Origin: a virus
Strand: one strand, 5' to 3'
Virus record (IMG/VR): IMGVR_UViG_3300012017_000065
Coordinates: 1 to 24,874 of that record
Length of the DNA: 24,874 nucleotides
How positions within the stretch are numbered: the stretch's first letter is position 1; every line of letters starts with the position of its first letter. A program made the translations under genes and the position numbers. Shown here piece by piece: positions 10,435-20,140 of the stretch. A model generated the notes under the pieces. It was not told the DNA's origin, did not search any database, and was given only the letters and a program-made list of their open reading frames with translations.

Positions 10435-11021
10435 GGCAGCAGGCGGTTGTACTGGTCGGCCGTCTTGCCGGCGACCCAGCCGTGGAAGCCAAAAGAGCAG
10501 GCAGGTCCGCAGTCGCCTTCCTCGATGTAGTGCTCCCACGCAAACTTAGCGGCAACCTCGACTGGCGCGTACTTCATGCCCAGTTCAGTCAGCGGCCGGT
10601 TCAAGACTTGGCAGGTAAACACGTCGCCGTTCTGACCAGCCCAAAGCGGAATCGCTGCGGCCGTAGCCTCAAGGAAACGCTTAGAGCGTAGGCAGAATCC
10701 TGTGTTTCCCACGCGATGCTTCGTGCCCCAGGCTGCCGGCCAAGGTGCGCCGATCATATCATACTGCAACCAGTCATCGTTCCACAGTTGAGGGTTGATG
10801 ATCCAGCCATCGTGCGAGACGAACAGGGCGTGCGAGGTGTGAACGTGGCACGCCAGTTCCTCGATCTCGCAGCGCATCGCATCTTGATAGTTCTTCGGCG
10901 TGTCGATCAGCACCGAGGCTGCAAAGCCAAACATTCGTTCGCAGTGACGCATGACGCGAGCGGTCCGCTCTGGATTAGCTCCATCCGTCGCGATCAGCGT
11001 GACATCCTTCAGCGTCTTCAT
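10431..11021 (-). CDS. DUF5672-type glycosyltransferase-like protein
   Basis: A 196-residue protein showing the DUF5672 pattern: F-V-S-H-D-G-W-I-I-N-P (residues 67-77), W-L-Q-Y-D-M-I-G-A-P-W-P (84-95), and R-V-G-N-T-G-F-C-L-R-S-K-R (103-115). This family is considered a glycosyltransferase-like, metal-using group found in polysaccharide and phage gene clusters. His70-Asp71 may replace the usual D-x-D-like acidic pair. The C-terminal G-D-C-G-P-A-C-S-F-G-F-H-G-W also matches the usual F-x-F-H-G-x ending. It overlaps both glycosyltransferase neighbours by ATGA, implying co-translation and a joint pathway. The glycan made is not predictable. Confidence 0.75.
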   Translation of the reverse strand: MKTLKDVTLIATDGANPERTARVMRHCERMFGFAASVLIDTPKNYQDAMRCEIEELACHVHTSHALFVSHDGWIINPQLWNDDWLQYDMIGAPWPAAWGTKHRVGNTGFCLRSKRFLEATAAAIPLWAGQNGDVFTCQVLNRPLTELGMKYAPVEVAAKFAWEHYIEEGDCGPACSFGFHGWVAGKTADQYNRLLP

Positions 11022-12733
11022 GATGCCTCCTTGGTCACCGCGTCCGGATTGCGCAGCTGAAACAGAGCACGTCCTCGCTCGTATCGCTCGCTCTGGTTAT
11101 TGTGCTTATAGGTCGCATCTAGTTGACCATGACCGAATTGCGGATGCGCGTGGACAAAGGTGATACGGTCGCGTGCATCAATCACGACGCCATCCTTCCA
11201 GGCTCGATGCGAAAACTCGTTATCCGAGAAGACCGACTCGTAGTCAGCGTAGAACATATCGCCCTGCTTCTCCCAGCGGCCGCGCGACATAATCGCCATG
11301 CACAGCAGCGAGTCCTTACGCGCGCCGTCGTTGATTGCGATGACGACTTCTTCCTTTGCCAGATCGCGGTTCGCGACTAGCTCAAGCAGTCGCAAGTCCC
11401 AGTGCAGCGGAGGCAGCCAATCATCGGATAGCTGAATGATGAGATCGCCAGACGCCTTGCGCGCTCCCTTGTTCCAAGCCGCGACGCAGCTGCGCTGATC
11501 TGAAACGACGTGTTCGAACTGCTGCGACATCTCCATTGATACTTCATCGTCGAGGTCGACACAGAAGATGTGCTCCACGTTGGCTGGATTGAAGGCGCTT
11601 TGAAGGAACGCATCACGGCACGCCACGGCCTTGCTGGATCGACCGCGGGTCGCATGGATCAGCGAGATCGTCGGCCGCGAGTGATTGTGAAACATGGCCT
11701 GCAACTCAGCCGCACGGTCCATCTTGCCGGCGTAACGCGCTGCACGCGCGGCGAGGTCGATGCCATACCATCCGTAATGCTTGGCCTCGTGCGTCCACGG
11801 CCGAATATCGTCTGGCGGCTCCGGTCGCAGCAGCGCCTGCTCGGCCCAGTAGAACGCGCGTTCCTTGTCCTGCTTTTCAAAGTAGAGAAGGACAAGCGAG
11901 GTCAGCGCCTCGCGACACCAGGGAAACACGCCGTGCGCCTCGAGGCAGTAGCGAATGGCGTCGCGGTGATTGCCGCAGCAGCGCGCCAAGTTGAGCAGCG
12001 CCTCGTACTTGAACGAGTCCATAAGATTCGGCATGGACAGCGCAATCTTAGCAAACTCCTCCGCGGCCTTGTAGTTGCCCGAGCAGTAGTGCTCTTGGTG
12101 GAGGTAAAAATACTGCGCGGCCGTGTCGCGAACCGAGTTGCGCAGGATCCTCAGATTGCGCGTGCGGTTCTCCCGCTTGACCTCGAGCGGTGCGTGGACC
12201 CAGACCGGATCGTTAAGGTCTTGGTGCTTGTCTCCGGCAAGCAGGAGCAGGTTCTCGTGGACATCGTGGTGCCACTTGCGGCCAGCGTGGAAACTTGCAC
12301 GACGCATGGCCCGTTCACGATATAGCTTCTTATTCGTACCGCGGACATCGTAGAGGAAGCGCACCATTGCCACCTCTGCCGCGACGCCTGCCAGCGTTTC
12401 GCGCAGACGGTCGGCGCCGTCCATGATGTCGTCACAGTCGGCCCAGATCAGCCAGTCTCCCGTGCCCTGCCGGAATGAATCGTTGCGCGCCTCGCCGAAG
12501 CTGTCGACGTGCTCCCACTTCTCGGCGCCGTACTGGTTCTGATGCTCGGAAAAGATGAACAGTTTTCCGTTGTTCTCGCACCAATAGCGAGCAATGGACA
12601 GCGTAGCGTCGGGTTTCCGCGAGCCGATGGCTCGGACTAGAGACAGTTCGTCGAAGGCCGGAGCGAATGAGTCCAGCATCCGGCCGATGTGGTGCTGTTC
12701 GTTCCCGCAGATGACACAGAGCGAAATGCGCAT
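11018..12733 (-). CDS. Two-headed glycosyltransferase: GT2 domain, helical-repeat middle, second GT-A-like domain
   Basis: With the ATG at 12733 the protein has 571 residues. Residues 1-130 form a GT-A family 2 domain (M-R-I-S-L-C-V-I-C-G-N-E opening; W-L-I-W-A-D-C-D-D at 94-102 as the D-x-D metal site). Residues about 200-350 are paired helices resembling TPR repeats (Y-F-Y-L-H-Q-E-H-Y; E-A-L-L-N-L-A-R-C-C-G). Residues 353-540 look like a second GT-A domain (R-P-T-I-S-L-I-H-A-T-R-G-R, C-V-D-L-D-D at 391-396, Q-L-S-D-D-W at 435-440). A GT2-TPR combination is known in some protein glycosyltransferases such as SunS, which makes a protein acceptor plausible but unproved. An upstream in-frame ATG at 12769 lies inside the terminator hairpin and is unlikely. 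Confidence 0.82.
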   Translation of the reverse strand: MRISLCVICGNEQHHIGRMLDSFAPAFDELSLVRAIGSRKPDATLSIARYWCENNGKLFIFSEHQNQYGAEKWEHVDSFGEARNDSFRQGTGDWLIWADCDDIMDGADRLRETLAGVAAEVAMVRFLYDVRGTNKKLYRERAMRRASFHAGRKWHHDVHENLLLLAGDKHQDLNDPVWVHAPLEVKRENRTRNLRILRNSVRDTAAQYFYLHQEHYCSGNYKAAEEFAKIALSMPNLMDSFKYEALLNLARCCGNHRDAIRYCLEAHGVFPWCREALTSLVLLYFEKQDKERAFYWAEQALLRPEPPDDIRPWTHEAKHYGWYGIDLAARAARYAGKMDRAAELQAMFHNHSRPTISLIHATRGRSSKAVACRDAFLQSAFNPANVEHIFCVDLDDEVSMEMSQQFEHVVSDQRSCVAAWNKGARKASGDLIIQLSDDWLPPLHWDLRLLELVANRDLAKEEVVIAINDGARKDSLLCMAIMSRGRWEKQGDMFYADYESVFSDNEFSHRAWKDGVVIDARDRITFVHAHPQFGHGQLDATYKHNNQSERYERGRALFQLRNPDAVTKEAS

Positions 12734-12751
12734 GGCATGGTTGAGAACGTC

Positions 12752-12789
12752 AAAAAAGAAAAACCCCACCCAGCCGAAGCCGAGTGGGG
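12752..12789 (-). terminator. Rho-independent terminator after the major capsid gene
   Basis: On the minus strand, CCCCACTCGGC-TTCG-GCTGGGTGGGG (12789-12764) folds into an 11-base-pair stem with two G-U pairs and a UUCG tetraloop. It is followed by TTTTTCTTTTTT (12763-12752). It lies 28 bases after the capsid stop and 18 bases before the glycosyltransferase start. It should end or attenuate late head transcription before the glycosyltransferase and tail genes. Confidence 0.93.
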
Positions 12790-12816: not shown

Positions 12817-13782
12817 TTAGCTATACTGAGTCCCGATCAATTGCGCACTATTCGTGTTCACGACCTTCTCGGCAACGTAGTGCGAAGCACGCACGATGTT
12901 GCTCTTGATGGCCTCGTCACGGTAGGTAAAGACGCCGGTCGGGCTGCCGTACTCGGACCAGTTCAGCGTGAAGCCAGCGCCACCGCCGAAGTAGCCGGAG
13001 GATGCATCGGTCACGGAACCGACCCAGATGTAGTCATTCGACCACGCCTGAGCGGAGGAGAACGCCAGACCTTCCTTCGCGCTGTCATAGCTGGCACGAC
13101 CGATGAGCGTCTCGGCAACGCCGAAGACCTCAGAGGCAGCCTGCTGCGAAGCGTTGAGGATGGTGTCCGTCGAAAGGCCCGTACCGCGGAGGCGGTTCTG
13201 GAACTTCGTGGACGCCTTGATGCGGGTCCAGACCGGGTTGCTCATGACAACGCGGAGGTTGTCGCGGCTTTCGCCCAGCGCCAGGAGGCGGTCAATCGCG
13301 GACTCGACATCGAGACCCACGTCGAACGTCGCGAGATTCGCGGTCGTGTACGCGGTGCCCGAGTTCGTCGAGGTGAACGTCGACGCGTTAAAGATCGCGC
13401 TTGAAACGCGGAGTTCGTGCGCGAGGAGCAGCTTGCGGAGGCACAGCTTGGTCGCAACGACTTCGGCGTCGAAGAAGCGCGACACGTCCAAGGCCACCGT
13501 ATCGTCTACGGCCTCTTCGTAGCCGTACTCCAGCGCGGTGTACGTCTCCTGCGTGAAGGCGCGCGTGCCGCGAGCGTAGGTCGCATACGGCGAACGGTTC
13601 TTCACGTCGCTCTTGAGCAGCTGGCCCTCCTTCAGCTTGAAGGAAGGATACTGGCCGGCGCGGACGGGAACATTGAGAATGGGCATTACGCGGGTGCCGA
13701 TCAGGTTGGACTCAAAGTCCTTGGCCTGTTCAACAACACCGGCGAGATCGCCACGGAAAATTGCAGCAGCGTTCGTATACAT
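12817..13782 (-). CDS. Major capsid protein (HK97-fold, lambda E-like position)
   Basis: A 321-residue protein directly after the decoration gene and before a strong terminator, the usual place and size of a lambda-like major capsid protein (gpE is 341 residues). The sequence has an N-terminal arm, V-P-V-R-A-G-Q-Y-P-S-F-K and a glycine- and aromatic-rich region (Y-F-G-G-G-A-G-F-T-L-N-W-S-E-Y-G) as in E-like and Mu-like capsid families. C-terminal strands end with V-A-E-K-V-V-N-T-N-S-A-Q-L-I. No long N-terminal scaffold arm is present, consistent with the separate nested scaffold upstream. The start ATG is preceded by a short leader almost identical to that of the decoration gene, without a Shine-Dalgarno. 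Confidence 0.85.
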   Translation of the reverse strand: MYTNAAAIFRGDLAGVVEQAKDFESNLIGTRVMPILNVPVRAGQYPSFKLKEGQLLKSDVKNRSPYATYARGTRAFTQETYTALEYGYEEAVDDTVALDVSRFFDAEVVATKLCLRKLLLAHELRVSSAIFNASTFTSTNSGTAYTTANLATFDVGLDVESAIDRLLALGESRDNLRVVMSNPVWTRIKASTKFQNRLRGTGLSTDTILNASQQAASEVFGVAETLIGRASYDSAKEGLAFSSAQAWSNDYIWVGSVTDASSGYFGGGAGFTLNWSEYGSPTGVFTYRDEAIKSNIVRASHYVAEKVVNTNSAQLIGTQYS

Positions 13783-13799
13783 GGTGGGTGCTATTAGAG
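13783..13799 (-). promoter_or_regulatory. Leader CTCTAATAGCACCCACC before the major capsid ATG
   Basis: This junction contains the stop of the decoration gene (TAA) and runs straight into the capsid ATG. It matches the decoration gene leader except for an inserted AG, and holds CACCCACC just before the ATG in place of a Shine-Dalgarno. Its role is unknown; it could be a translational signal for highly expressed virion genes. Confidence 0.45.
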
Positions 13800-14147
13800 G
13801 TTCTTAGCGATGAACTCGATGATCGAGCCATCGGTGCCGGCGGTCGTAAGCGACTTGCCGACGGTTACGCTCCCGGTGGGGCTGATTTGGCCTGACGCGG
13901 CAAGATATAGCGTGTCGCCAACCGTTACGGGACCAGTGACCAGCGTACCCTTCTGGGTGCCGCCGTTGTTCAAGAACTTCACGGTGACGTAGTCGCCGGA
14001 AGCTGCGTCGATCTGCGCGATGCCGTCAACGCTGCCGGTAGAAGCAGCGAGACCGACAGAACCGTTCGTGGAGATCACCACAGCGCGAAATGCGGTGATG
14101 GTCGCGTTGGCAAGGAACGAGCCCGTGCCGAAGTATTGGGTGCTCAT
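13794..14147 (-). CDS. Head decoration protein, DUF2190-like
   Basis: A 117-residue, Thr/Gly/Ser-rich beta protein between protease and major capsid protein, the classical place for the capsid-stabilising decoration protein (lambda D position). It has the repeated pattern of DUF2190 proteins: A-F-R-A-V-V-I-S-T, G-I-A-Q-I-D-A-A-S-G-D-Y-V-T-V, V-T-V-G-D-T-L-Y-L-A-A-S-G and V-G-K-S-L-T-T-A-G-T-D-G-S-I-I-E-F, ending in the common (I/V)-x-F-I-x-K form. It should bind the expanded capsid surface. The family name is from remembered patterns; the location supports it strongly. Confidence 0.82.
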   Translation of the reverse strand: MSTQYFGTGSFLANATITAFRAVVISTNGSVGLAASTGSVDGIAQIDAASGDYVTVKFLNNGGTQKGTLVTGPVTVGDTLYLAASGQISPTGSVTVGKSLTTAGTDGSIIEFIAKNL

Positions 14148-14162
14148 GGTGGGTGATTAGAG
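14148..14162 (-). promoter_or_regulatory. Leader CTCTAATCACCCACC before the decoration gene ATG
   Basis: It spans the end of the protease gene and the nine bases up to the decoration ATG. It is identical to the capsid-gene leader apart from a two-base gap. No Shine-Dalgarno is present. The same CACCCACC-ATG arrangement in front of the two most abundant head proteins suggests a shared translation signal or a duplicated junction. Confidence 0.45.
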
Positions 14163-14444
14163 TTTCACGATCTCGCCGGCCTGAACGCGGGTGCGGTAGG
14201 CAGCGTACTCGTTCTTGTGATTCTGGACGCAGAACGCGATGGCCGCGCTCTTGCTCTTAAGTTCCGTCGCCTTGGCGGCAACCAACTCCTCGAACTTCTG
14301 CGCAGCGGCAGGAGCAGGAGCAGCTGGAGCTTCGGAGGCGATGGCCTTGGTTACCGGAGCGCCAAAGGACTTGGCGAACTCCTTGACAGCGGCGAGACCA
14401 GCAGCCTCAGCGGCCAGCTTGATTTCGTCGTTACGGGAGGCCAT
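14157..14444 (-). CDS. Nested in-frame scaffold protein candidate (95 residues; lambda Nu3-like)
   Basis: Inside the protease gene, the ATG at 14444 (M209, starting MASRNDEIKLAAEAA) is preceded by AAGGAGG with five bases between, the best Shine-Dalgarno seen in the window. Translation from it gives a helical, Ala/Lys-rich 95-residue protein equal to the C-terminal part of the protease. In lambda, the scaffold Nu3 is produced in this way from within gene C. The window has no other scaffold gene. The motif also codes for K-E-V in the full protein, so chance cannot be excluded. Confidence 0.55.
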   Translation of the reverse strand: MASRNDEIKLAAEAAGLAAVKEFAKSFGAPVTKAIASEAPAAPAPAAAQKFEELVAAKATELKSKSAAIAFCVQNHKNEYAAYRTRVQAGEIVKL

Positions 14445-15068
14445 AGCGACCTCCTTGTCTTCAGGCTTCGGCAGCATCGACTCCAGCTTGGAGAGACGCT
14501 CGCCCAGGCCCATCATGGCCGACTCAATCATGCCGGCGATGGCTTTCTTGTCTTCGTCGTTCATAGGGGAAAGTTCTTCGGATTTCATCGAAAACAGCCC
14601 GTCGGCATTTGCCGCGGGTTCGCTGACCAGATCGCAAGAGTAGATTTCCGAGCAGCGTTGAAGGACCGTTTTCTTGTCGTTTGCAAGTTCGGTCGGACCG
14701 CTGAAGGCGATGGACATTCCGAACGTGTCCGGAATCTTCTCGGCGATCTCAAAGATGTAGGCGCGGTGCGGCGTGTTCTGCAGAACGTGGAAGTTGGCGA
14801 TCAGCTTGTTGCCGGCGATGCGGAAGTCGGTCAGATAGCCGACGATGTCGGCAGCACCGCCGCCGTGATCCATCTTGACCTTGAGGCCACCAGAGTAGGT
14901 TTCGGCCTGCGACTTGACCTGCTCAAGCGTCGTGGCGTCGATCTGTACACCGTGGCCCAGTGCGCGTCCTTCGGTGATGACGGCAACGTCGTGAATGACT
15001 CCGGTCGATTCGTCGATCTGCCCGACAAAGCCACGGGCAAAGTAGCAGGGGAACGCTTCGGTCATCAC
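14157..15068 (-). CDS. Prohead protease with C-terminal scaffold region (lambda C-like arrangement)
   Basis: A 303-residue protein. The first 160 residues match a herpes-type prohead protease: H68 in K-M-D-H-G-G-G, a serine in D-T-F-G-M-S-I-A-F-S-G (S119 the likely nucleophile), and C-D-L-V-S-E-P-A-A-N at 145-154, a hallmark of these proteases. Residues about 165-303 are helical, Ala/Lys/Glu-rich with an A-P-A-A-P-A-P-A-A-A linker (247-256), like a scaffold domain. The protease should cleave scaffold and itself during prohead maturation. An internal start at residue 209 probably yields scaffold alone. The first two codons are both ATG; either could start. It is followed by decoration and capsid genes. 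Confidence 0.82.
   Translation of the reverse strand: MMTEAFPCYFARGFVGQIDESTGVIHDVAVITEGRALGHGVQIDATTLEQVKSQAETYSGGLKVKMDHGGGAADIVGYLTDFRIAGNKLIANFHVLQNTPHRAYIFEIAEKIPDTFGMSIAFSGPTELANDKKTVLQRCSEIYSCDLVSEPAANADGLFSMKSEELSPMNDEDKKAIAGMIESAMMGLGERLSKLESMLPKPEDKEVAMASRNDEIKLAAEAAGLAAVKEFAKSFGAPVTKAIASEAPAAPAPAAAQKFEELVAAKATELKSKSAAIAFCVQNHKNEYAAYRTRVQAGEIVKL
14450..14456 (-). promoter_or_regulatory. Internal Shine-Dalgarno AAGGAGG
   Basis: AAGGAGG lies five bases upstream of the internal ATG at 14444, near optimal spacing, whereas most gene starts in the window lack such a site. It supports a nested scaffold start. Confidence 0.55.
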
Positions 15069-15947: not shown

Positions 15948-16355
15948 CTAGATCTGCGCAGCTTGGCGGAATACCTCGTCGATCTGTTCTGCTGTGAGAC
16001 TGAAGGCAGAGCCAAAGGAGAGAACCAGAGGATGCGTGCGCTTAATCTCTGCCGCGTATTCCCACAAGATCTCGGCCTCGGCTTCCTTGTCGACGTCCTC
16101 GATGGCAGCGATCAGAGCGAGCACGTCGTTCGGCTTGATGTTGTGCAGACGGCGCAGCGCGATCCGCAACTGCGCAGGACCAACCGCTTCTGGAACAGGC
16201 CCAGGAAGCGGCGGCGGAGGCGGATTGTCAGCACGCCACGTCGCGAAGTCTACCTCGTTGAGCAGCAGCCAACCAGCAGCTACAGGATACGGCGATGCAC
16301 CGTCCCACAAGATGCAGTTTACCTCCTTTTCCGGAGAAATCAAAAAGTGTCTCAT
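15948..16355 (-). CDS. Tail fibre-associated small protein (possible fibre assembly chaperone)
   Basis: A 135-residue protein that starts at an ATGA overlap with the fibre gene. Residues 1-41 (F-L-I-S-P-E-K-E-V-N-C-I-L-W-D) resemble a short adaptor; a proline run (45-54) links to a helical C-terminal domain (60-135) with A-Q-L-R-I-A-L-R-R-L, W-E-Y-A-A-E-I-K-R-T-H-P-L-V and Q-I-D-E-V-F-R-Q-A. This helical domain is frequent in small genes directly after phage tail fibres. Translational coupling to the fibre suggests that it assists fibre folding or attachment, but this has not been shown for the family to my knowledge. Confidence 0.68.
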   Translation of the reverse strand: MRHFLISPEKEVNCILWDGASPYPVAAGWLLLNEVDFATWRADNPPPPPLPGPVPEAVGPAQLRIALRRLHNIKPNDVLALIAAIEDVDKEAEAEILWEYAAEIKRTHPLVLSFGSAFSLTAEQIDEVFRQAAQI

Positions 16356-19300
16356 AGGTAAGTAATCACGATTACCGCGCCGTCGCCACCGTTGCCGCCT
16401 GCTCCGGAGTCAACAACGGCGTTGACTCCCGCGCCACCGCCACCGCCTCCGCAACCACGACCGCCAGCGCCGCCAGCTCCAACCGGTCCGGTCGTGGTAG
16501 CTGATCCGCCTCCGCCTCCGTTTCCGCACAGAGAGTACGTCGGACCGGCTCCGGCTGATCCATTTCCGCCAGATGTACCTCGCGCACCACCGCCTCCAAC
16601 TGCATAAAAGCCTCCTTGTCCTCCAGCAGCACCTTGTACCACAATATTTGTGTCAGTAATTCCCGCTCCTGCGCCGCCACCAGAACCGCCATAAATTGAA
16701 CTTCCAGCACCAGTCATTGTGCTGAGGTTTGAAGCACCGCCGGAAGCACCTCCCCACTCAGTAGATAAGCCTGCGGTTGCCGATCTCCTACCTACTCCGC
16801 CACTTTGTGTAACAGTTGTGGAATTGGTTTGAAAGTTAGCTTGATCCCCGCGCGTGACGCTTCCACCATCGCCACCTTCCCGTGATGAGGCGACAATTCC
16901 TCCGATTCCGCCGCCGCCGCCACGCGCTATGATCCAATTTCCGAAGCTAGAATCGCCGCCAGTATTGCCAGCGTTGCCATTAGTACTGCTTGCAGTAACT
17001 GCTGCTCCACCTGTTCCGCCAGCTCCAACCGTAACCGTTTCAGACGCGCCAAGCAAATCCGCATTGAAGGTGTTTTTCGCACAAGCGCCACCACCTCCAC
17101 CGCTACCACCTAGTCTTGTACTAGATGCAGCGCCTTTACGACCAGAAGCACCACCGCCGCCACCACCAATACAGATCACCTCAACGACCTTAGCGCCAGT
17201 TGGCTTCGTCCACGTCGTGCTTGATGTGTAAACAGTCACGGACACCCCACCGCCGCCAGCAGCAGCACTGATCCAGGTTGTGCCGTTGCTTTGTAAAACG
17301 TTGCCGCTAGTACCAGGCGCGACGGTAAGAAAACTCGTCGTGCCGTTCCCAAGGATAACGTTGTTAGCCGTAACCGAAGCCAATCCAGTTCCGCCATTCG
17401 CTACCGGCAGCGTCCCAGTCACCGACGCCGTCAGCGAAACATTGCTGACCACGATAGGAACATTTGAGGCCGCCGTGATGCGTCCTTTTGCGTCAACCGT
17501 GATTGAGGCAACCGAGCTTGCTGATCCGTAGTTACCTGCCGTGACGCTCGTATCAGTCAGCGCGAAGTACAGCGTGCCAGTCGTCGTGATCGGACCTCCC
17601 GTTACCGAGATGTCAGCGCTGCCCTGCGCCGTCACGCTTGTGACCGTGCCTGTGTACTGGTCGGCCGAGTTGATCGTGAAGTTCGGATACGTTCCGGTCA
17701 CGCTTGTCGTGCCCGTGCCCGTCAGCACAACGGTCTGATCGGGTGCCGTGTTGATGACTTCGATTGCACCACTGCTTGTGATCGGACCGCCCGAGATCGA
17801 GATTCCCGTTCCTGCGGTCAGGGAAACGCTCGTGACCGTTCCGACGTACTGGTCGGCCGATGAGATCGTGAAGTTGGGATAAGTGCCCGTGATCGTAGTC
17901 GTTCCGCCCTGCGTGAGAACAACGGTCTGATCCGGAGCCGTGTTGGTCACCTCGATGGTGCCGCTTGACGTAACCGGACCGCCAGAAATGGAAATGCCAG
18001 TTCCGGCCGTCAGCGAAACGCTCGTCACGGTGCCGACGTACTGGTCGGCGCTGCTGATCGTAAAGTTCGGGTACGTCCCAGTGATCGTCGTTGTGCCGCC
18101 TTGCGTAAGGACGACGGTCTGGTCTGGCGCGGTATTCGTGACCTGAATGCTGCCGCTCGAAGTAATCGGCCCACCAAAAATCGAAATGCCCGTGCCTGCC
18201 GTGAGCGCGACGCTCGTGACCGTTCCGCCAACATCCAGCGAAGACAACGTGCCGCCAGTGTAGGTAAGGCCAGTGCCAATGGTAACAGACGAGAATCCGC
18301 CCGAACCGTTGCCGGCCAGAATCGCCGTGCCGGTCGTGGCAGGTGCGAAGTACGTTGTGGACTCAAACGCAGCGCTGCCCAGGCCTGACACTTGACCAGC
18401 GGTTATGGCAATCGGTACAGCCGCGGCAGCCGTCATTCGTCCCTTTGCGTTCACCGTAAACGATGCAACGCTGCCAGCCGTACCATAGCTGCCAGCCGTT
18501 ACGCTCGTATCGCTGAGTGAAAAGTACAGCGTGCCACTGGTAGTGATCGGTCCACCAGTGACCGAGATGTCAGCGCTTCCCTGCGCAGTGACACTCGTAA
18601 CTGTTCCGGTATACTGATCCGCACTTGAGATTGTGAAGTTGGGATAAGTGCCCGTGATGCTCGTCGTCCCAGATCCACTCAAAACCACAACTTGATCGGG
18701 CGCGGTGTTGATAACCTGAATCGTTCCGCTTGAAGTCACCGGACCGCCACTGACAGAAATTCCAGTTCCGGCCGTCAACGCGACGCTCGTGACAGTGCCA
18801 ACGTATTGATCGGCACTGCTGATGGTAAAGTTCGGATAGGTTCCGGTGATGGTCGTCGTACCACCTTGCGTAAGAACGACGGTCTGATCCGGTGCCGTGT
18901 TCGTGACCTCAATGGTTCCGCTGGTTGTGATCGGCCCACCGCTGATGGAAATTCCGGTTCCTGCCGTCAGCGCCACACTGGTCACGGTGCCGCCACCGCC
19001 TCCACCCGTTGCAGCCAGCGTGCCTGCGCTGAACGTAAGTCCAGTCCCGACCGTGACAGAAGCAAAGCCACCGCTGCCGTTCCCGTAGAGAATCGACGTT
19101 CCAACCGTCGCAGGAGCAAAGTAAGTCGTCGATTGCAACGCAGCACTGCCCAAGCCAGACACCTGTCCAGTCGTGATGCTGATGTTGGCATCGGACGCTG
19201 CGGTCAACCGACCTTGCGCATCGACCGTGAACGTGCCGACCTTGTTAGACGCACCGTAGCTGCCAGCGGTTACAGCCGTACTCGCGAGCGCCAGAGTAAA

Positions 19301-20140
19301 GGTGCCACTGGTCGTGATGGGACTGCCTCCGACCGTGATCGCGCCATCTCCCGTGGCTGCAACCCTTGTGACCGTACCGCCTCCGCCTCCGCCACCAGTG
19401 GCTGCAATCGTAATATTTCCGGCGGTGTTCGTGATCGTTACGTTCGACCCAGCGGTCAACGTGTTCAGCTGGAAGTCGCCGCCGTTACCGATGAGCAACT
19501 GACCAGCCGCCGGCGTTCCCGTCAGATCCGTCAGCGAGTTAATATTCGAACCACCGCCGCCAGCACCGCGTGCAGCCAAGAGCGTCCAGTCCTTTGCTGA
19601 CCTGCTCGGCTTCTCCCGCGTCGCACGGTTCGCAATGTAGGAATCACCGTTAATCGAAACGACATCGAGCGCTTCATATTCGCCGGCCGTCCACTTGCCG
19701 AGCGGCGTGAGCGTCCGAGGCGCGGCAAACTCCTCGCGCGCCTTGATCTGCTCATCGAGAATCCGCGTGACCGTCTCCGGCAGTTCAGCGGTAGCCAAAA
19801 GGATTCGCTGCTCCGCAACCTCCAGCAGCTGCGCGTTCTTCTCGCGCTCTGCCATCAGCGCGGAATATTTCGCGCCAACCGACAATTCAAGTTTTGAAAG
19901 CAGGTCCGAAATCTTCGCTCCGATTCGTCCCTCCAGTTGTTGAACTTCATTCTGCGCCGACTTCGCGCAAAACTCCGCAAGTTCAGACCGCAGCTGCGGC
20001 TCGATGTCCTCAATCGCGAGCGCTAGCTCATCTCGCATCTGCGACTTGAGTTGCGGAAGCGTCGCAACGATGCGCGACAATTCTCCGCGATGCTCAATCG
20101 CCAACTCAATGAGGTGGTCGATCTGCTTTTGCGTGTCCAT
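16352..20140 (-). CDS. Large modular tail fibre / adhesin with glycine-rich tip (1262 residues)
   Basis: Residues 1-140 are helical and coiled-coil-like. Residues 141-192 (L-G-K-W-T-A-G-E-Y-E-A-L-D-V-V ... D-W-T-L-L-A-A-R-G) match the small carbohydrate-binding-like domain common near fibre N-termini. Residues 255-962 are repeat modules in the order B-A-A-B-A-A-A-B, where A is exactly 64 residues and B is about 130, each opening G-T-V-T-(S/R)-V. After a short V-A-N-G-G-T-G-L segment (913-920), residues 990-1262 form a poly-glycine-rich domain like those at the tips of T-even gp38-type adhesins. No S74 chaperone domain was seen. The location between portal and protease is unusual for a fibre. 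Start ATG is three bases after the portal stop. Confidence 0.85.
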   Translation of the reverse strand: MDTQKQIDHLIELAIEHRGELSRIVATLPQLKSQMRDELALAIEDIEPQLRSELAEFCAKSAQNEVQQLEGRIGAKISDLLSKLELSVGAKYSALMAEREKNAQLLEVAEQRILLATAELPETVTRILDEQIKAREEFAAPRTLTPLGKWTAGEYEALDVVSINGDSYIANRATREKPSRSAKDWTLLAARGAGGGGSNINSLTDLTGTPAAGQLLIGNGGDFQLNTLTAGSNVTITNTAGNITIAATGGGGGGGTVTRVAATGDGAITVGGSPITTSGTFTLALASTAVTAGSYGASNKVGTFTVDAQGRLTAASDANISITTGQVSGLGSAALQSTTYFAPATVGTSILYGNGSGGFASVTVGTGLTFSAGTLAATGGGGGGTVTSVALTAGTGISISGGPITTSGTIEVTNTAPDQTVVLTQGGTTTITGTYPNFTISSADQYVGTVTSVALTAGTGISVSGGPVTSSGTIQVINTAPDQVVVLSGSGTTSITGTYPNFTISSADQYTGTVTSVTAQGSADISVTGGPITTSGTLYFSLSDTSVTAGSYGTAGSVASFTVNAKGRMTAAAAVPIAITAGQVSGLGSAAFESTTYFAPATTGTAILAGNGSGGFSSVTIGTGLTYTGGTLSSLDVGGTVTSVALTAGTGISIFGGPITSSGSIQVTNTAPDQTVVLTQGGTTTITGTYPNFTISSADQYVGTVTSVSLTAGTGISISGGPVTSSGTIEVTNTAPDQTVVLTQGGTTTITGTYPNFTISSADQYVGTVTSVSLTAGTGISISGGPITSSGAIEVINTAPDQTVVLTGTGTTSVTGTYPNFTINSADQYTGTVTSVTAQGSADISVTGGPITTTGTLYFALTDTSVTAGNYGSASSVASITVDAKGRITAASNVPIVVSNVSLTASVTGTLPVANGGTGLASVTANNVILGNGTTSFLTVAPGTSGNVLQSNGTTWISAAAGGGGVSVTVYTSSTTWTKPTGAKVVEVICIGGGGGGASGRKGAASSTRLGGSGGGGGACAKNTFNADLLGASETVTVGAGGTGGAAVTASSTNGNAGNTGGDSSFGNWIIARGGGGGIGGIVASSREGGDGGSVTRGDQANFQTNSTTVTQSGGVGRRSATAGLSTEWGGASGGASNLSTMTGAGSSIYGGSGGGAGAGITDTNIVVQGAAGGQGGFYAVGGGGARGTSGGNGSAGAGPTYSLCGNGGGGGSATTTGPVGAGGAGGRGCGGGGGGAGVNAVVDSGAGGNGGDGAVIVITYL
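17651..18226 (-). repeat. Three tandem 192-base A modules in the fibre gene
   Basis: Residues 639-830 consist of three exact-length 64-residue units with near-identical sequence, each running from G-T-V-T-S-V through N-T-A-P-D-Q-T-V-V-L to I-x-S-A-D-Q-Y. Differences are mostly synonymous or conservative, pointing to recent duplication or recombination among copies. Confidence 0.92.
18608..18991 (-). repeat. Two tandem 192-base A modules in the fibre gene
   Basis: Residues 384-511 are two 64-residue A units of the same family as those at 17651-18226, separated from them by one B module (residues 512-638). Identical unit length without indels argues for strict structural register, probably one trimeric shaft segment per unit. 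Confidence 0.92.

Follow-up and report, generated by a model that had tools for sequence, protein, structure and literature searches.

The window studied here, a stretch of 24,874 nucleotides of viral DNA, carries a gene that would encode an assemblin-like head maturation protease, a linker and a helical scaffold, and we consider it quite probable that a nested scaffold of 135 residues is initiated inside this protease gene at ATG 14564 (codon 169). The first-pass annotation had also put a scaffold start within the protease gene, at ATG 14444; the nesting is well supported by our results, while the start at ATG 14444 is not.

From the observations given below, we infer the following sequence of events. 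A low G content and a lack of structure in the mRNA at ATG 14564, as also found where the cement and capsid genes start, would let ribosomes locate this codon without a Shine-Dalgarno (SD) sequence. This second initiation would yield a free scaffold, presumably exceeding the fusion in amount. Within the prohead, the free scaffold would then co-assemble with the protease-scaffold fusion, both to be removed later by the protease.

Table 1. Coordinates of the protease-scaffold gene, its parts and the neighboring head genes
Feature	Position	Strand	Description	Basis
Protease-scaffold gene	14157..15068	-	303 codons from GTG 15068; ATG 15065 alternative start	PHROG head maturation protease matches; relatives
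Predicted protease domain	14619..15020	-	residues ~17-150, assemblin/gp21-like fold	AlphaFold2, fold comparison, profile match to named phage homologues
Hypervariable disordered linker	14565..14618	-	residues 151-168	indels among relatives, low pLDDT
Proposed nested scaffold ORF	14157..14564	-	135 aa	helices 171-197, 209-235, 259-296
Proposed nested start codon	14562..14564	-	ATG, codon 169	ATG in 80/80 rows and 29/29 further loci
Unstructured G-poor start region	14538..14588	-	-24 to +27 around ATG 14564	mean MFE -2.9 kcal/mol, z +1.36; G z -2.0
AAGGAGG	14450..14456	-	probably chance Lys-Glu-Val reading	
ATG, codon 209	14442..14444	-	probably internal Met only	ATG in 73/80 rows; MFE -13.0, z -0.39
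Cement/decoration gene (Phage_cement_2, DUF2190)	13794..14147	-	SD-less real start	
Major capsid protein gene	12817..13782	-	SD-less real start	

Relatives and samples

Searching with the window protein gave 39 viral contigs, and a profile search gave 124 relatives, 80 of which were used, plus one genome contig. The 80 aligned rows are full-length and count the window itself; the incomplete L027, L029, L034, L035 and L036 were dropped. A search with the scaffold part yielded 221 relatives, of which 80 were used; among the resulting 31 rows, L110, L112 and L145 end early. Folding was scanned in 40 of 50 representatives. Two duplicates were noted: L111 is a copy of L073, and L085 (VGHX01000030.1) is probably one of viral contig L022, whose length it shares. 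L085, the sole genome match, is a contig in a betaproteobacterial MAG; it is probably a mis-binned phage contig and was not used for host assignment.

Layout and fold of the gene

AlphaFold2 models (mean pLDDT 61 and 66) show a protease domain, a disordered linker and then three helices. Thus, a single ORF is predicted to combine an N-terminal protease with a C-terminal helical scaffold, as in the nested protease/scaffold genes of the Mu I/Z type. The modelled protease domain has an assemblin/gp21-like fold, aligning, among the folds listed, with T4 gp21 (5jbl) at a VIA Z of 8.5 over 134 residues (rmsd 4.0) and with herpesvirus assemblins at Z ~5. Foldseek assigned the same fold with a probability of 0.98-0.99, yet with an E of only 0.004-0.013, and many of the predicted viral structures that match the domain are annotated as prohead proteases. 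Pfam gave no match for the protease of the window gene and none in 16 members at E<=1 (S49 included); a PDB sequence search likewise returned no match.

Conservation at the linker/scaffold junction

ATG 14564 lies 120 bases upstream of ATG 14444, in the same frame and at the junction between linker and scaffold. Codon 169 is ATG in all 80 aligned rows, and also in all 30 further rows spanning it that the scaffold-part search provided, one of which duplicates an earlier contig (29/29). The adjacent linker is rich in substitutions and indels, the residue before the Met being P, E or A in the 80 rows; M169 and N170 are each conserved in 80/80. As the Met at codon 180, in a structured region, is likewise found in 80/80, Met conservation at codon 169 alone proves little, and we rejected it as sufficient proof of a start.

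The synonymous-rate profile shows a weak dip immediately before codon 169 (z ~ -2) and none at codon 209. Synonymous change is lower over codons ~250-303 (14157-14320, minus strand), at 0.12 vs ~0.23 in the protease part; this confounds the profile, and the dip is therefore not used as main evidence. Anti-SD pairing at ATG 14564 is -1.0 and does not go beyond -3.0 in any of the relatives, i.e. the SD of the Mu I/Z type is lacking. Among the 28 rows extending far enough upstream (including L111, which repeats L073), no scaffold-only gene without protease was found.

Structure and base composition of the mRNA around the proposed start

Codon 169 was chosen from conservation before a 51-nt region was scanned for folding in the 40 relatives. 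With a mean of -2.93 kcal/mol, the codon 169 region ranks first in openness among 284 columns. It is less structured than synonymous shuffles in 39/40 relatives at a mean z of +1.36, a shuffle score that is modest per sequence and comes from relatives that are not independent. The codon 209 region has a mean fold of -13.0 and a mean z of -0.39, i.e. it is on average more structured than its shuffles. In 16 relatives outside the scan set (L111 removed as a repeat of L073), codon 169 again showed a mean of -2.3 and z > 0 in 14/16. The 20 nt upstream of codon 169 contain a G fraction of 0.10 vs a gene mean of 0.30 (z -2.02), second lowest among 287 columns by either measure; upstream of codon 209 (ATG 14444) it is 0.34.

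As a control, the capsid gene was scanned in 37 relatives. Its most open internal column reaches -6.8, and its highest internal mean z values are 1.28 (column 10, near the gene start) and 1.18 (column 40). The z at codon 169 is thus not unique by itself; its combination with openness is. Downstream of ATG 14564, codons 190-197 (~14480-14501, minus strand) are structured beyond synonymous shuffles, with means down to -25 kcal/mol and z down to -2.3.

Comparison with the cement and capsid gene starts

Two starts that are certain to be real, those of the cement gene and of the capsid gene, served as a yardstick. An anti-SD value of -6 or lower was found at these real starts in 0/59 distinct contexts for cement and 0/58 for capsid; in other branches, motifs resembling AAAGGA, at about -5.5, precede many of the capsid starts. 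As these starts in the phage family have no strong SD, the SD is a poor guide to starts. In agreement with the remark of the first-pass annotation that most starts in the window lack an SD, 4/24 listed ORF starts reach -6 kcal/mol.

The real starts are open (mean fold -3.9 for cement, -1.7 for capsid) and poor in upstream G (0.04 and 0.07). ATG 14564 resembles them in being SD-less, open and G-poor, and ATG 14444 does not. A study of Bacteroidetes describes low structure as what sets real starts apart from internal Met codons when SD pairing is absent (PMC3155529). An A at -3 occurs in 44/52 cement and 38/38 capsid starts, while ATG 14564 has C or G there, which counts against it; such an A is described in another study as helping initiation in Bacteroidetes (PMC6847099). 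The start of the protease gene itself lies in a structured region (-10.5), its position being uncertain in many relatives.

The cement gene matches Pfam Phage_cement_2 slightly under the cut-off. The first-pass annotation had further claimed that the window lacks a second scaffold gene; among the ORFs scanned, the one family match of this kind was that of the cement gene to a scaffold-labelled PHROG. The PHROG in question, 673, carries the label head scaffolding protein, as does the gene in the DUF2190 position in two named phage records; in the case of the cement gene family this is probably a mislabel. The cement and capsid genes also share a near-identical SD-less leader (13783-13800 and 14148-14165) ending in CACCCACC before the ATG.

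Junction ATGs in distant named phages

Direct searches with the window protein or the scaffold part matched no named phage; distant matches were obtained via L037 and L058 only, the L037 protein weakly matching Bacillus phages (27%). At the profile level, hhalign linked the protease domain to the named phage homologues (96.3%, E 1.7e-9), the match stopping short of the scaffold. Of 35 named phage records, we retrieved 15 and scanned 14; L153 was omitted as near-identical to L151. The order protease-scaffold, Phage_cement_2/DUF2190, capsid is shared by these phages and the window.

In 13/14 scanned phages, mostly of Bacillus, an in-frame ATG lies at the junction (codon 154-168) with an anti-SD of -9.2 to -13.3, and in 12/14 it is the strongest internal SD site. 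In phiT1, no junction ATG with SD was found. The gene as annotated in GBK1 has a longer 5' part; here the strongest SD, at codon 141, seems to mark the true gene start, and the junction ATG comes second. With the peptide fixed, each junction SD recurred in a fraction of 0.02-0.31 of shuffles; seven lineages combined by hand (Fisher) gave ~0.01. For this shuffle test, the inner start was taken as the beginning of the gene in GBK1 and Glittering, and phiT1 was left out. Junction SD and ATG are kept between lineages although the surrounding peptide differs.

We lean towards the following view of the family as a whole: its scaffold would arise from an SD-less internal start known by an open, G-poor patch, its distant relatives, in SD-using hosts, would mark the junction by an SD, and the nested gene would have been kept through this switch of start signal. 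If true, the same nested gene outlived a change in its start-site signal. Bacillus phage 056SW001B, which grows on a B. subtilis laboratory strain, is a named relative in which this idea is testable.

The junction could also be read at the protein level. Self-cleavage near the MN junction, with M169/N170 as cleavage site or helix cap, would free the scaffold without any internal start, and the presence of a protease, the disordered linker and the full conservation of both residues are consistent with this. It leaves unexplained, however, why the mRNA is open and G-poor beyond synonymous shuffles, and why the distant homologues, whose peptide there is unrelated, carry a strong-SD junction ATG in 13/14 cases. 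We consider self-cleavage unlikely.

The AAGGAGG motif before ATG 14444

The start at ATG 14444 would give a product of 95 residues. Its letters were confirmed: AAGGAGG stands five bases (spacer TCGCT) before this ATG, in frame with the 14157-15068 ORF. Motif and spacing are perfect, the ATG is kept in 73/80 rows, and the pairing (-12.1 kcal/mol) is the strongest among the in-frame start codons of the gene, the next being -5.2. The window contains three AAGGAGG-N3-9-ATG sites vs 0.18 in dinucleotide shuffles. Among 20 genes tested, 14444 is the single internal in-frame site of this kind, with synonymous shuffling giving a mean of 0.40 (P = 0.40); in the protease-scaffold gene, an SD of equal strength recurs at ATG 14444 in 38% of synonymous shuffles with the peptide fixed. 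In the window genes, AAG makes up 82% of Lys codons and GAG 66% of Glu codons. AAGGAGG thus reads as Lys-Glu-Val in the usual codons of the phage, and the motif is probably a chance SD.

The first-pass annotation had named conservation in relatives as a check on its start and synonymous loss as speaking against it, and such loss was observed. AAGGAGG occurs in only 16/80 aligned rows. K-E-[V/A]-A-M is preserved in 32 rows, of which 16 spell the Glu as GAG and the other 16 as GAA, so that the SD is gained or lost synonymously; the AAGGAAG version in relatives is still a weak SD (-5.5 to -6.3). The ATG itself is lost in 7/80 rows, replaced by TGC in four, GCC in two and GCG in one. The region is also structured, its upstream G content is unlike that of the real starts, the synonymous-rate profile has no dip there, and in the structural model the product would miss the first scaffold helix. 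ATG 14444 was therefore rejected as the nested start, and we regard a scaffold beginning there as very improbable.

Similarly improbable is that the full-length fusion alone serves as protease and scaffold and that the mRNA feature has another cause: in HK97, the scaffold is described as being part of the major capsid protein, where it forms a domain, but a protease-scaffold fusion of this kind would place one protease on each scaffold copy and, like self-cleavage, leaves the open mRNA and the junction SD of the homologues unexplained.

Comparison with known nested scaffolds

Returning to initiation at ATG 14564, several known systems can be compared. Nested scaffolds are usually spotted through an internal SD. 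In lambda, the Nu3 scaffold is nested in the protease gene C, whose product is an S49 (ClpP-fold) protease, and in herpesviruses the UL26.5 scaffold uses a separate promoter. With lambda C/Nu3 the window gene shares a protease with a probable nested scaffold, and protease, decoration and capsid genes follow each other in the same order; its fold match, in contrast, is to assemblin/T4 gp21. C is referred to as the protease and Nu3 as the scaffold in a passage of PMC3224144. The likeness to herpes UL26/UL26.5 lies in the assemblin-fold protease (Z ~5) and in the scaffold nested in the protease gene, whereas our proposal for the window gene is that translation starts internally on one mRNA. UL26.5 is described, in a passage of PMC12474303, as read from a gene beginning within the protease gene UL26.

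In the case of Mu I/Z and of gene 27 of the Mu-like PaMx73, the likeness is the in-frame scaffold start within the protease gene; for PaMx73, PMC4378225 places this start at codon 177. Their internal start has an SD, unlike ATG 14564, and the searches run showed no sequence match to Mu. Having neither the SD of Mu I/Z nor the separate promoter of herpesviruses, the window gene would be a variant rather than a plain member of these systems. The Andromeda-like phages of Bacillus and their relatives share with it the homologous protease domain, the gene order and the junction ATG; they differ in the strong SD at that ATG, and the profile match does not reach the scaffold.

Our literature searches, an Andromeda-like phage paper included, brought up no recognised description of the nested start of this phage family, which is not proof of its being unpublished. 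These results suggest that, in phages whose head genes have SD-less starts, nested scaffolds may be overlooked or assigned to the wrong position, and that start-site openness together with codon-level conservation may pinpoint the right codon.

Neighboring genes

Two further genes were noted around the head genes, both on the minus strand. Between the portal and protease genes lies an ORF of 1262 aa with a glycine-rich C-terminal domain (16352-20140), and a two-domain glycosyltransferase gene (11018-12769) is located between the head and tail genes.
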